Origin: Hyphococcus sp.
Lineage (GTDB): Bacteria; Pseudomonadota; Alphaproteobacteria; Caulobacterales; Parvularculaceae
DNA length: 64,000 nt
NCBI GenBank assembly: GCA_021776335.1
Contig: JAJFGB010000007.1
Span: 1-64,000 of the forward strand
Direction: 5' to 3'
Position 1 is the first letter of the stretch. Each line of letters begins with the position of its first letter. The position numbers were made by a program, and so were the translations under genes. The notes under the pieces were generated by a model, which had not been told where the DNA came from, searched no databases, and worked only from the letters and a program-made list of their open reading frames with translations. This document shows positions 30,234 to 36,455 of the stretch, piece after piece.

Positions 30234-32645
30234 TTACGCAAAATATCCGACTGTGGCCCCGATCAGCAAATAAACCCGGCCCAAGGGTGAGCTTAAATAT
30301 TCCTCCAGCTCTTCATCGGCTGTCTCAGAGGTGGTGGCGTCCTCCAGCAGCTTTTCAAACCCCTGCAGGTAGTCGTGAATGCCGCGCTCGAACTCTTTGT
30401 TTCGACCTGATTCCGTCCGTATGCGCCGTTTGACGTCTGCCTCATTGAGCCTCAGCAGCCGATTGGCAAATACATTGCGATCGCCGCGTTCGAACCGTTC
30501 CTTCAGCGCTGGCGGTGGGGCGCCATAAAGCTTGATTTCAAGATCATGCGTAAAAAGTTGAAGTCGCGAAATGACCTTGATTGCATTTTCCTCGGCGGTT
30601 CGCGCCTCGGTCTGCGTCTTCTTGGCGGCAGTGCCGAGCTCAAGCGGCTCAGCGTCATCTGCCGCATCGAGAATTTCGCGCCACGAGATATCGCCCTTGT
30701 TGCGGCGATTTTCATCATTTCCGGTTGTGGGCCGTGTTACGGGCGGTTCTTTGCGTTGCTGCGTATTGCGTCGAGGACGGCGTTCGGCGATGTCGCGCGC
30801 CAATTCATCAAGGCGTTCACCGCCGTTGGCAGCAGGAGGCGCGGTGTTTTTCGCCGGCGCCGGTTTCGTTCGACTTGCCTTGGCAAGGTCGAGTGTGGCT
30901 TGGGGCGCTGTCTGCACATCTGGCGGTTGCTTTTTTGCTTCTTCTTCACCAGCAGATTCTTTTGTTGAAGCGTTGTTCTTATTGGGCGCAACTTCTGCGT
31001 TGGGAGCGGATTCTTTGACCGCTGTTGGCGCAGGCGTGCGGTTGCGTTCTGCAGCTTGTCGGTCCGCTTCTGCCTGCATGTTGATTTGTGCTTGCGTCAA
31101 ACGCGAAGCAGCTTCTTGCTCACTTAATTGCGCTTCGGCGAGGCGTGACAAGCGTTCCGTCTGTGACGAAATGGCATCTGCGAGACGGTCAGCGCGGTTT
31201 CGCTGTTCTTCAATCAGGGTTTCCAGACGCGCATTTTCCTTTTCCAGCGCGGCGCGCGCCTCGGCCAGCGCTTGCGTACGCTGTTCGACCTGTCCGGCAT
31301 GGGCCCTGGAATATTTGATGGCGTCGCTTGCGGATTTGCGCGTGCTTTCGGTTGCTGCGGCAATATCCGCAGAAGCTTTAGAAGCTGCTTCGCCGGTAAG
31401 GCGAGCGGCGTCGGAGACATCGCTCGCCGCTTGGGTGGCTTTGGCCGCTTCAGCAACAGCGCCGTCGACAACTTGTTTCGTCGCCTCTTGAACTTTTGTC
31501 GTTTCTTGCATCGTTGTTTCGATCGCAGCGTTTGACGCTCGTGCGGCTTCTTCTTTAGTTTTTTCGATAGCGGCGTCAGTGGCTTCACGAGCCGATTGTG
31601 TGATGTGATCTATTGATGCAGCGACATTGGCTGCTTCACGTTTGGCCAATTCAGCCGCGGATTCTGCTGACATACCGACCCGTTCTGTCGCCTCCATTGT
31701 TTGCGCGGCAGCTTCATTAATCGATCCGGTTGAAACGCGGATGGTTTCGTCTGTTTCACGCAACGCATCGCGAAGAGATTCAAAACTCGCGAGTGCATTG
31801 GCTGCAGCGCCTTCCAACCGTGTCAGGCGTTCGTCAAATTCTTGCTCTGCGTGCAGTGACACGGCATCGGCTGACTGGATGGCTTCGATGCTGTTTTTTG
31901 CTTTCTCGGCGATAGCAATGGCAAATGAATCCGCATGGGTATTGAGATTTTCGGTCAACTCCATCAGCCGTGCGCGTTCATCGGCAACGCGCGTTACCGC
32001 CCCGGTGGCTTTTTGTTCGATGGCTTCGCCGGCAACCTCGATTGCTTCAACATGCTGGCGGATCATTGCCTCGACTGTTGCGAGGCGCGTCAAGGCGCCG
32101 TCAAGGCCTTCGTTCAGGTCATGCAAATGGCCCTGGACGACGGCCCCAACGGTGTCAGCGTTCTGCGCTGCCAAGAGATCCGGCGTGACAAAGCGCTGTG
32201 CCGCCGCAGCAATCGATTCCGCAGCGTTTAGCATCGTTAGGGAACGCGACAGCATATAGCCCATCAATATGACGAGAACGGGAACAATGAAGGCAAAAAT
32301 CAAAAAGCTGAATTCATAGGCTGCCAACAAGCTCCAGCCATTTGATGATCCGTAGAGCTGGAGGTGAGCAAGCCAATTGCCGAGAGGCAGACCAATGACG
32401 AACGAAAAGAACACGAAAACCGCCGTGAGGCGGGAGACCAGCCAAACTTGGCGGCTCGTTGCATTCCAGCGCTGTGTATTTTGAATGGCCGGCCCGACGC
32501 CATAGTCGCCGCCGGCATAGGCGGCGGTGCGCGCATCCGCTTCGACAATGCCCTTAAACCGCACGCGCGGCGCATCATCGGCATCTTTGGCGCCAGCCCG
32601 GCTTTCGCCGGCGGCAGCATCATATTGGTCGCGATCTTCGTTCAC
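30234..32645 (-). CDS. Large coiled-coil inner-membrane protein with TipN-like architecture
   Basis: An 803-residue protein: hydrophilic head (1-68), two membrane segments (about 70-92 and 110-133), a very long Ala/Glu-rich coiled coil (about 140-540), a disordered Pro/Lys/Thr-rich stretch (about 540-640) and a compact C-terminal domain (about 645-803) with GDRNVFANRLLRLNEADVKR and YLSSPLGRVY. Caulobacter TipN, a pole-marking protein, has the same two-membrane-segment plus coiled-coil plan, and the C-terminal domain recalls a family found with it. Identity with TipN is inference from architecture, not proven. The start is GTG with AGGAAAG upstream. It converges with the MCE operon. Confidence 0.55.
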   Translation of the reverse strand: MNEDRDQYDAAAGESRAGAKDADDAPRVRFKGIVEADARTAAYAGGDYGVGPAIQNTQRWNATSRQVWLVSRLTAVFVFFSFVIGLPLGNWLAHLQLYGSSNGWSLLAAYEFSFLIFAFIVPVLVILMGYMLSRSLTMLNAAESIAAAAQRFVTPDLLAAQNADTVGAVVQGHLHDLNEGLDGALTRLATVEAMIRQHVEAIEVAGEAIEQKATGAVTRVADERARLMELTENLNTHADSFAIAIAEKAKNSIEAIQSADAVSLHAEQEFDERLTRLEGAAANALASFESLRDALRETDETIRVSTGSINEAAAQTMEATERVGMSAESAAELAKREAANVAASIDHITQSAREATDAAIEKTKEEAARASNAAIETTMQETTKVQEATKQVVDGAVAEAAKATQAASDVSDAARLTGEAASKASADIAAATESTRKSASDAIKYSRAHAGQVEQRTQALAEARAALEKENARLETLIEEQRNRADRLADAISSQTERLSRLAEAQLSEQEAASRLTQAQINMQAEADRQAAERNRTPAPTAVKESAPNAEVAPNKNNASTKESAGEEEAKKQPPDVQTAPQATLDLAKASRTKPAPAKNTAPPAANGGERLDELARDIAERRPRRNTQQRKEPPVTRPTTGNDENRRNKGDISWREILDAADDAEPLELGTAAKKTQTEARTAEENAIKVISRLQLFTHDLEIKLYGAPPPALKERFERGDRNVFANRLLRLNEADVKRRIRTESGRNKEFERGIHDYLQGFEKLLEDATTSETADEELEEYLSSPLGRVYLLIGATVGYFA

Positions 32646-32847: not shown

Positions 32848-33654
32848 ATGACGATCGAACCACCAGCTGGAGGCCAGACCGGCCTGCAACGATTTGTCGA
32901 AAACCCGTGGTTTCAGGGCCTGGTGCTTGGGTTAATTATTGCCAATGCGGTGATTTTGGGCGCGGAAACCTTTGAAGCGGTGAATGCTGCGATAGGGCCG
33001 GTTTTAAGGATTGCCGATCGCTTGATTGTCTACTTTTTTTTGGTGGAGATCGGGTTGCGCATCATCGCTTATCGCGCAGAATTCTTCAAAAATGGCTGGA
33101 ATCTGTTTGATTTCCTGGTGATCGCGATATCGCTGTTAGCGGCGACGTCGGGGTTGGCGGCGCTCCGCGCTTTCCGGGTTTTGCGCGTTTTGCGTGTTAT
33201 AACAGTCATTCCACGCATGCGGGTTGTCGTATCAGCCCTGCTTGACGCGATTCCCGGTATCGCCTCGGTCGGCGTAGTGCTGGCATTGATCATCTACGTT
33301 TTTGCGGTGATCGGCGCCAGTTTTTACGGTCAACTGCATCCGGCGCTGTTTGGCGACGTCTTTCAGGCCATGTATACGCTGTTTCAAGTGATGACGCTGG
33401 AGGGTTGGCCCGACATTGCCGCGCAGGTGGCGAAAACCCACCCGCGATCTTGGGTCTTCTTTCTATCCTTTGTGCTGATTGCAACTTTTACGATGCTGAA
33501 CCTCTTTGTCGCGATCGTCGTGCGCGTGGTGGAGGAGGATTCTGAGACTCTCATTGAAGGCATTTTGAAAAACCAGGAAGCGCTGCGCGATGATATGTCC
33601 GGATTAAAGCGCGATGTCGCCGAAATTGCCCGAAATCTCAGCGGCAAAAGCTAG
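32848..33654 (+). CDS. NavBac-type voltage-gated cation channel with TLEGWPD filter
   Basis: A 268-residue single-repeat six-transmembrane channel that would assemble as a tetramer. S4 carries arginines every third residue (R107, R110, R113, R116 in ALRAFRVLRVLRVI). The pore helix and filter are FQVMTLEGWPD, with TLEGWPD at 183-189. S6 contains FTMLNLFVAIVVRVVEE, and a short C-terminal coiled coil (about 235-262) fits the tetramerisation domain of NavBac channels. Classical Na+ channels read TLESW; Gly at the fourth position plus a late Asp is known from a calcium-selective relative (CavMr), so ion preference is open. It is a single gene. Confidence 0.9.
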   Translation: MTIEPPAGGQTGLQRFVENPWFQGLVLGLIIANAVILGAETFEAVNAAIGPVLRIADRLIVYFFLVEIGLRIIAYRAEFFKNGWNLFDFLVIAISLLAATSGLAALRAFRVLRVLRVITVIPRMRVVVSALLDAIPGIASVGVVLALIIYVFAVIGASFYGQLHPALFGDVFQAMYTLFQVMTLEGWPDIAAQVAKTHPRSWVFFLSFVLIATFTMLNLFVAIVVRVVEEDSETLIEGILKNQEALRDDMSGLKRDVAEIARNLSGKS

Positions 33655-33735
33655 AAAAGAGCGTTCCTTGCCGTCGCCCTGGCGGCGGCGTATTTGAATC
33701 GCAGACGCACTATAACCAGCGCCGGGAGGCGACCT

Positions 33736-34908
33736 ATGCGGTCCAACAGTCATGCTTTTATGAAATTCGATCTCGATCCGATGATTGAGGAAATGCGTGA
33801 TGTGGTCGCGCGCTGGGTTGCGGACCGCTTGGCGCCGCGTGCGGCGGAAATCGACGAGAAGAATCTTTTTCCCCGCGATTTGTGGCCGGAGCTCGGTGCG
33901 CTGGGCGTATTGGGGATTACAGCTGACGAGGAATTTGGCGGCGCCGGTCTTGGTTATGTCGCCCATTGCGTTGTGATGGAGGAAATCTCACGCGGCTCCG
34001 GCGCCGTGGGTTTGTCATACGGCGCACATTCCAATCTTTGCATCAACCAGATTAATTTGAATGGGAGCAAAGAACAAAAAGCGAAATATCTGCCGAAACT
34101 GATTTCCGGCGAACATCTTGGCGCTCTTGCGATGTCCGAACCGGGTTCGGGCTCCGATGTCGTATCAATGAAATTGCGGGCGGAAAAAAAAGGCGATCGC
34201 TACGTTCTCAATGGCAGCAAGATGTGGATCACCAATGGACCCGGCGCCGACACCGTCGCGGTTTATGCCAAGACGGATCCGGATGCCGGTTCGCGCGGCA
34301 TCTCCGCTTTTATTGTTGAAAAGGGGATGAAGGGATATTCGACCGCGCAAAAACTCGACAAGCTTGGCATGCGCGGGTCCGATACGTCGGAACTTGTATT
34401 TGAAGACTGCGAAGTGCCGGAAGAAAATATTCTTGGCGAGCTAAACAATGGCGTGCGCGTGCTGATGTCCGGGCTCGACTACGAGCGTACTGTGCTTTCG
34501 GCCGGTTCGCTTGGCATCATGCAGGCGTGTCTCGACGTTGTAATTCCATATATTCATGATCGCGAGCAATTCGGCAAACCGATCGGCTCGTTTCAGCTTG
34601 TACAAGGCAAACTCGCCGACATGTACACAACCACAAATGCCTGCAAGTCTTACGTTTATCAGGTAGCAAAAGCTTGTGATCGCGGCGAGACGACACGCCA
34701 GGATGCGGCCGGCTGCATCCTTTATGCATCGGAAAAAGCAACGCAGGTTGCGCTGGATGCAATCCAGCTTTTGGGTGGCAATGGATACATTAATGAATAC
34801 CCCACAGGCCGGCTTTTGCGTGACGCCAAGCTTTATGAGATTGGCGCCGGAACGTCCGAAATCCGCCGCATGCTCATCGGTCGCGAGCTGTTTGAAAAAA
34901 CAGCGTGA
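33736..34908 (+). CDS. ivd: Isovaleryl-CoA dehydrogenase
   Basis: Flavin-dependent acyl-CoA dehydrogenase of leucine degradation, oxidising isovaleryl-CoA to 3-methylcrotonyl-CoA. The 390-residue protein shows [15 protein letters not shown], the FAD-contacting [14 protein letters not shown] and [17 protein letters not shown], the catalytic-glutamate segment [11 protein letters not shown], and [19 protein letters not shown] near the end. [10 protein letters not shown] and LDYER support the IVD subtype. GGGAGG (33724-33729) selects the ATG at 33736; an in-frame start at 33694 is less likely. The usual methylcrotonyl-CoA carboxylase genes are not next to it here. Confidence 0.9.
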
Positions 34909-35246: not shown

Positions 35247-36455
35247 TTAACCGGCAAACAGCGCGCGTTTTTTCGCCAGGGCGGTTTCTTTCAGGAAAGT
35301 TCTGACGAGTGGCCGAGCGGTGAGGCGCGCAGCGATGACACCGAACGCGACAGCAAGCGCGCCGACCGTGAGGATTGCATCCTGTGCGACGACCGATGCT
35401 GCATCGAACAGCGAAATCAAAAACAAAGCTGACGCGGCGCCCGGTGCGCCACCGAACCAGGCCAGAAACATCTGGCTTTCTTTCGGGAGTGTAGTTTTCT
35501 TCAATGAGGCAAGCCTTGGGCCCGCACGCATCACAGTGACGGCGGCGAGGGCAAAGACAATTGATAAGAGGTCGGCCTGGAGAATCCTGGGCGCCAGTAA
35601 CACGCCAAAGGCAAAATACGCGATCGGCGCGACATTGTGCTCGACCAGCCTGCGCAGCCGAACTCGCGTGGTCACGAGCGCAGTGGACTGTTCGCCCCAG
35701 AGAAGGCCTGCAGCGGCGGCGGCAATCACCGAGTGGGCGCCAAGAAGCGGCGCCAACATAAAGGCTGCGCCGCCGGCCAAAATTGGCAACCATCCGGTTC
35801 TCTTTCCCGGTTTAAGCCGATTGCCGACCATCGCAGTGGCAAGACCGAGGCTTCCGCCGAGGGCAAAACCGATCAATAGCATGCGGCTTGCCTCCAGCAG
35901 CGGTGTGACCAGGGGCATACCCTGAGGCGCTGCGCTGGCGGTCGCCTCAAGTAATACAGCAATTGGGAGGCCGAGCGCGAGGATTGCCGCGCTTTCCAGC
36001 CGTACCGCGGCTTTGATAGTGGCGTGCGCTGGCGCATCAGTGACCGCCCGCCGATCAAAAGCCGCACCGTTGAGGGTGAGCGTTCCAGCGAGCAACATCG
36101 CAGCGCTCAGCGGAAGCTGCGGGACCAGGATAAAGGCCGCGAGGCCGCAAATGATCAAAAACAAAGGGGCGCCGCCCAAGGTCAGCCGGAATGAGGCGGG
36201 ACAGACAGTGGCCAAACGTGAGACACGGAATTGACACGCTGCGGCGAATGCCAGGGCTGCCAGGAGAATATCTGCGCCGCCGGCAACCCATTCTGAAGGC
36301 ATAAACGGCCCACCGGCGACCCGATAAAATAGTGATGCGCCGGCGCCGGCAACCAACATCATCGCAGGCGCGCGTGCTGCGACACCGACGATTCTCGTCT
36401 TGTTCAGAATCCAGAATGTGACGACACATAAAGTCGCCGCGATTACCAAAGTCAT
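35247..36455 (-). CDS. Monovalent cation:proton antiporter family membrane protein
   Basis: A 402-residue integral membrane protein with about eleven to twelve hydrophobic segments. The arrangement resembles Na+/H+ exchangers: LAALAFAAACQFRVSRL in an early helix, GAAFDRRAV and AAVRLESAAILALGLPIAVL midway (ES replacing the usual ESL/ND pattern), and LAWFGGAPGAASALFLI near the end, matching the WGGLRGA-type segment of CPA1 exchangers. The exact ion and direction are unknown. Its 3' end stops 3 bases from the TfoX-like gene, and the 5' region lacks an obvious ribosome site. Confidence 0.75.
   Translation of the reverse strand: MTLVIAATLCVVTFWILNKTRIVGVAARAPAMMLVAGAGASLFYRVAGGPFMPSEWVAGGADILLAALAFAAACQFRVSRLATVCPASFRLTLGGAPLFLIICGLAAFILVPQLPLSAAMLLAGTLTLNGAAFDRRAVTDAPAHATIKAAVRLESAAILALGLPIAVLLEATASAAPQGMPLVTPLLEASRMLLIGFALGGSLGLATAMVGNRLKPGKRTGWLPILAGGAAFMLAPLLGAHSVIAAAAAGLLWGEQSTALVTTRVRLRRLVEHNVAPIAYFAFGVLLAPRILQADLLSIVFALAAVTVMRAGPRLASLKKTTLPKESQMFLAWFGGAPGAASALFLISLFDAASVVAQDAILTVGALAVAFGVIAARLTARPLVRTFLKETALAKKRALFAG

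Follow-up and report, generated by a model that had tools for sequence, protein, structure and literature searches.

The 64,000-nucleotide window from the marine bacterium Hyphococcus sp. analysed here carries an intact gene for a voltage-gated cation channel, which reads from an ATG start as one open frame (Table 1). Its product matches the Pfam family Ion_trans with 157 bits (4.7e-46; cut-off 25 bits), and NCBIfam returned no useful name for it. Elsewhere in the 4.18-Mb genome Ion_trans is matched just once, by a potassium-type channel with TVGYGD. The best named match is a channel of a Marinicaulis (Parvularculaceae) metagenome-assembled genome, with 83% identity. A chance reading or a pseudogene is ruled out by the open frame together with the conservation described below. 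The divergent neighbour encoding an 803-residue protein lies head-to-head with the channel gene wherever Parvularculaceae loci cover this stretch (24 of 24); it scores above cut-off for none of the Pfam or NCBIfam families, and a functional link between this protein and the channel is possible. The acyl-CoA dehydrogenase gene downstream adjoins the channel gene in only part of the genus, and many Parvularculaceae loci have a Na+/H+ exchanger-like gene a few kilobases or less from the channel.

Table 1. Genes and channel features in the window, with the basis of each assignment
Feature	Position	Strand	Basis
Divergent neighbour encoding 803 aa, with hydrophobic stretches at the N-terminus followed by a long coiled-coil-like region	30234..32645	-	Context
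Gene for the voltage-gated cation channel, 268 aa, cysteine-free	32848..33654	+	ORF; Pfam Ion_trans; AlphaFold2 model
S4 voltage-sensor helix, residues 104-120	33157..33207	+	Model helix; R107, R110, R113, R116
S5 pore helix, residues 135-160	33250..33327	+	Model secondary structure
P1 helix, residues 171-182	33358..33393	+	Model secondary structure
Selectivity filter T183 L184 E185 G186 W187 P188 D189	33394..33414	+	Sequence
P2 helix, residues 187-197	33406..33438	+	Model; spacing count and alignment
S6 into C-terminal helix, residues 201-268, heptad pattern	33448..33651	+	Model; sequence
Acyl-CoA dehydrogenase gene, downstream, same strand	33694..34908	+	Pfam; context
Na+/H+ exchanger-like gene	35247-36455	-	Context

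The protein is a single-domain Ion_trans member, with six helices, a score above the curated cut-off, and S4 arginines accompanied by their counter-charges. In the AlphaFold2 model (mean pLDDT 93), the P2 helix begins at residue 187 and is joined to S6 by a short link (residues 198-200 only), and S6 and the tail are predicted to form one continuous helix (residues 201-267), the tail sequence carrying a 3-4 repeat, L246-M250-L253-V257-I260-L264. The nearest solved structures by Foldseek are NavAb, CavAb and NavMs (Z about 20-21), and NavAb heads the VIA-align list (Z 21.0; 2.1 Å over 224 residues; 38% identity). Across an alignment of 75 relatives, F64, E67, W84, D88, R107, R110, R113, P136, L178, F179, T183 and W187 are invariant and E185 is nearly so; the invariant residues include the counter-charges E67 and D88, together with F64, and the Thr-Trp pair (T183 and W187), which in NavAb braces the filter (PMC10761118). 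A preliminary description of this DNA had reported the filter as TLEGWPD and the S4 arginine ladder and NavBac-like tail as intact, and all three are borne out: the filter occupies residues 183-189, the first three arginines of R107-R110-R113-R116 are invariant and R116 is kept in at least 90% of the 75 homologues, and the predicted helix with its repeat extends to residue 267. Judged from sequence and model, the gene would encode a homotetramer-type subunit, with a predicted tetrameric assembly and a channel anatomy that points to voltage gating.

Conservation and spread of the filter

A full orthologue is present in 21 of the 27 other genomes of the genus (E of 4e-105 or better), and TLEGWPD is found in 21 of these 21, with the proline encoded by CCG, CCC or CCT. 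Two further genomes (G015 and G023) have a TLESW channel only, one (G024) a fragment match only, and in three of the 27 genomes searched (G002, G006 and G019) no channel match was found. Two genomes, G014 and G016, each carry the TLEGWPD channel plus a TLESWSM channel, arguing that the TLEGWPD channel is not simply the sodium channel of that lineage; the coexistence of both in one genome suggests that they have different jobs. In a family set of 34 distinct sequences (at least 55% identity), TLEGW is invariant, its Gly being written with each of the four codons, position 6 is Pro in 27, Ala in 4 and Arg in 3, and position 7 is always acidic (Asp in 27, Glu in 7). By these sequences, Gly4 is invariant throughout the Parvularculaceae.

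A filter-unbiased survey took in 190 distinct proteobacterial channels from genome searches across relatives, class and phylum. Gly4 is commonplace among them, and Pro6 occurs in 40 of the 190, a count inflated by close relatives, 27 being of the window's own family type. The remaining Pro6 channels spread over several other families, and the careful tree described below requires seven changes at this position; Pro6 is neither unique nor limited to one lineage. Because a further scan used the peptide QVMTLEGW, which includes TLEGW, the loci it gave are filter-biased, and the frequencies given here come from genome-search loci only. On viral contigs, 20 pattern matches yielded no channels.

The proline at position 6 had at first been described as unfamiliar from characterised channels. 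This holds for characterised homotetrameric channels in the literature searched, where we found neither a paper mentioning TLEGWPD nor recordings from a homotetrameric bacterial channel with Pro6; however, precedents exist in the many uncharacterised proteobacterial channels above and in two-pore channels. The chains of solved two-pore channels read TTANNPDV and TTANFPDV, with Pro-Asp aligned to positions 6-7. The likeness of their filter I (TTANNPDV) lies in this Pro-Asp pair; these are two-domain eukaryotic channels without the filter Glu and without TLEGW, and close descent is not claimed.

Some channels show variants around or within the filter. Three (L115, L117 and L150) read FK(I/V)MTLEGWPD, with lysine in place of the P1 glutamine (NavAb Gln172, which contacts the filter Glu); this form occupies two separate tree positions, and its selectivity may be altered. 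Odd filters, TLSSWEQ, TLSSWET and VYDDYGT, are found in small alphaproteobacterial genomes (L263, L264 and L262).

A one-residue shortening of the P2 region

The canonical arrangement of TLESW followed by a full-length P2 region is absent from the window channel, which has TLEGWPD and a distance of 31 residues separating its filter Trp and conserved S6 Asn (W187 to Asn218), versus 32 in NavAb and NaChBac, a difference that the preliminary description overlooked. The spacing is 31 in 68 of 68 extracted proline-6 rows. Among Ser4 rows it is 32 in 83 of 89, and other Gly4 rows divide into 17 at 31, 66 at 32 and 5 at 33, all of these being row counts that take in QVMTLEGW-biased loci and in which some channels appear twice. 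In a reduced set, 20 of the 51 short rows have proline and none of the 85 long ones does. The association of proline with the shortening is without exception, among rows that are related and hold three informative independent pairs only (p 0.25).

The alignment locates the P2 deletion directly after position 6, the certain part being that the segment linking Trp to S6 is one residue shorter. Given the conserved Ile past the filter (I190; I183 in NavAb), the loss falls within Ser180-Met181-Gly182 of NavAb, and in the alignment the counterpart of Met181 is either deleted or replaced by Asp.

Spacing and filter combine differently in some other channels. An uncultured betaproteobacterium (L033) and a Rhodocyclaceae genome (L035) have TLEGWAMEVVRPVM, a natural combination of Gly4, Met7 and full P2 length; these TLEGWAM channels come close to NavAb S178G, the engineered channel selective for lithium, and are nearer to it than the window channel is. 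In four adjacent channel gene pairs (L232, L231, L230 and L227; G540:C22, G561:C135, G505:C62 and G640:C391), both members are Gly4/Pro6 and short and their filters differ, TTEGWP(T/S) lying beside T(M/S)EGWPD; the members of such a pair might assemble into a mixed tetramer, much as animal calcium channels have domains that differ from one another. Further tandem pairs occur at L226 (G342:C198), where TFDDWIE adjoins TLEGWAE, and at L213, L214 and L201.

Descent of the window channel

The careful tree was built without the filter columns; CavMr and NavPp are not in it, and proteobacterial TFEDWTD/TLEDWTD channels stand in for their group. In the best tree, the window clade joins NavAb and the TLESW channels, and the TFEDWTD/TLEDWTD channels join NaChBac (100/96). 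Forcing the window clade into one clade with the TFEDWTD channels is worse by 20 log-likelihood units with an AU p of 0.119, in a tree with long branches; the NavAb-like placement is thus favoured, short of proven. An alignment and tree of the kind that the preliminary description had called for, with these stand-ins for CavMr, make NavBac ancestry, on the NavAb side, probable and a descent from the CavMr group less so.

We consider it unlikely that the window channel belongs to the CavMr/NavPp (AnclNav) group, with the short P2 region as an old shared state. A spacing of 31 and an acidic position 7 are common to the TFEDWTD/TLEDWTD channels, and the AU test leaves a single clade unrejected; against this stand the separation of the groups in the best tree, an identity of about 40-50% to NavAb-like channels versus about 32-37% to TFEDWTD/TLEDWTD channels, and the cysteine-free sequence of the window channel, which excludes a CavMr-type L6 disulphide. 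Such a descent would be compatible with calcium selectivity, and its likelihood is not exclusive of the other readings. Possible, if still doubtful, is a convergent history independent of CavMr, in which calcium-type filters arose repeatedly within the NavAb-like clade by Ser4-to-Gly replacement and loss of one residue at the P2 start, with Pro6 as a recurrent finishing step that would remove the Glu-amide contact.

Ion selectivity and its implications

CavMr from Meiothermus ruber, an AnclNav channel whose filter is TLEGWVD as the preliminary description had stated, is Ca2+-selective with PCa/PNa > 200; its G4S mutation reduces this ratio to about 12, and NavPp carrying the CavMr filter reaches 215 (PMC7041947). 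The window channel resembles CavMr as a homotetramer-type, voltage-gated channel with TLEGW and Asp7 at identical residue numbers (183-189), yet it has Pro6 instead of Val6, lacks the long extracellular L6 loop with a disulphide reported for CavMr (PMC10120453), and has its best tree place on the NavAb side and not in AnclNav. The pairing of Gly4 with a downstream Asp, first taken as a calcium sign, is indeed found in CavMr, but Gly4 is frequent in proteobacterial relatives, and Asp7 is not the determinant, as D7M CavMr is still calcium-selective (PMC7041947). Gly4 is insufficient by itself, because NavAb S178G ("LivAb", TLEGW) is Li+/Na+-selective with PCa/PNa < 0.01 (PMC12919392), a result that contradicts, for the NavAb backbone, the assignment in a review of Gly at filter position 4 to the Ca2+-selective class (PMC10120453). 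NavAb M181A variants show an about tenfold gain in Ca2+ selectivity (PMC12919392). The NavAb-like placement of the window channel matters for this reason: in NavAb, S178G does not bring calcium selectivity, and a change at Met181 raises calcium permeability.

With NavAb-type channels, the window channel shares the fold (Z about 21, 38% identity), the voltage sensor, the C-terminal helix and the tree placement, whereas theirs are TLESWSM, Met181, one extra P2-region residue and Na+ selectivity. NavAb S178G likewise has TLEGW on a NavAb-type channel, but it is an engineered channel in which Met181 and the P2 length are unchanged, and it is Li+/Na+-selective. NavPp (TLEDWTD; Na+-permeable with Ca2+ block, PMC7041947) and the proteobacterial TLEDWTD/TFEDWTD channels share Asp7, the latter also the spacing of 31, but they have Asp4 and Thr6, and the proteobacterial ones branch with NaChBac. 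Domain I of Cav3.1 (TLEGWVD) has TLEGW-D and aligns without gaps to the window filter through the P2 region, but belongs to a four-domain eukaryotic channel with Val6 and one extra residue between P2 and S6.

Our preferred reading, to which we give a probability of roughly 0.58, is that the window channel is voltage-gated, Ca2+-permeable and probably Ca2+-selective, having gained a CavMr-like filter via Ser-to-Gly replacement and P2 deletion. The calcium channel first proposed is thus likely as regards permeability, on a different argument, namely Gly4 plus the P2 shortening with loss of Met181. In such a homotetrameric six-helix member of the NavAb-like sodium-channel clade, depolarisation would move the S4 arginines and the pore would open. 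Within the lineage, TLESWSMGI would have become TLEGWP-DI, in an order of changes that we infer: Ser4 would have been replaced by Gly, and one residue of S-M-G at the P2-helix start lost, with Met181 removed or Asp in its place. Gly would widen the outer mouth and expose the Glu ring, and loss of Met181 would remove the element by which NavAb tells monovalent and divalent ions apart; together, the two changes should favour a Ca2+-permeable pore. In NavAb, the filter Glu177 is in contact with the Ser180 backbone amide (PMC4537306, PMC10761118); Pro188 has no backbone NH, so that a contact of this type with position 6 cannot form, which may be the role of the proline. In the model it stands second in the P2 helix, presumably a proline-tolerant place, and should fit there.

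Some observations speak against a calcium channel: NavAb S178G alone is not Ca2+-selective and the tree groups the window channel with NavAb-like ones, and Val6 matters in CavMr, where V6T is less selective and proline was not among the substitutions tried (PMC7041947), and the L6 disulphide loop is missing here. It is rather unlikely, in our estimate, that the window channel is instead a monovalent channel, either Na+- (or Li+-) selective or weakly selective and possibly blocked by external Ca2+, whose filter change only retunes monovalent selectivity. The Li+/Na+-selective NavAb S178G, the Ca2+-blocked NavPp with TLEDWTD, a filter whose bearers are also short-spaced, and the tree position beside NavAb agree with such a channel, and the nearby Na+/H+ exchanger-like gene would fit a sodium role equally; however, Met181, which enforces monovalent selectivity in NavAb, is gone or Asp, the P2 region is one residue shorter, and some genomes of the genus retain a separate TLESWSM channel. 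Quite improbable is a poorly selective cation channel (Na+, K+ and Ca2+) whose filter is loosened by the proline through removal of the Glu-amide contact: CavMr-V6T and NavAb M181A show reduced selectivity, and two-pore channels, with Pro-Asp at the aligned place, are described as having no fixed single selectivity (PMC11317647), but a TLEGW invariant despite synonymous change and an acidic position 7 fit a tuned filter better.

If the short Gly4/Pro6 channels do conduct Ca2+, as the preferred reading of a calcium-permeable channel would have it, there would be many prokaryotic Cavs beyond CavMr, which a 2026 paper names as the sole prokaryotic Cav identified (PMC12919392). Some of these channels belong to culturable alphaproteobacteria, such as Marinicaulis flavus and Amphiplicatus metriothermophilus, and some share a genome with a classical TLESW channel. 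They offer matched natural sets (Ser4 with long P2, Gly4 with long P2 and Gly4 with short P2) for the question of the sodium-to-calcium switch, in which the deciding factor is predicted to be a single residue where the P2 helix begins, and not glycine by itself.
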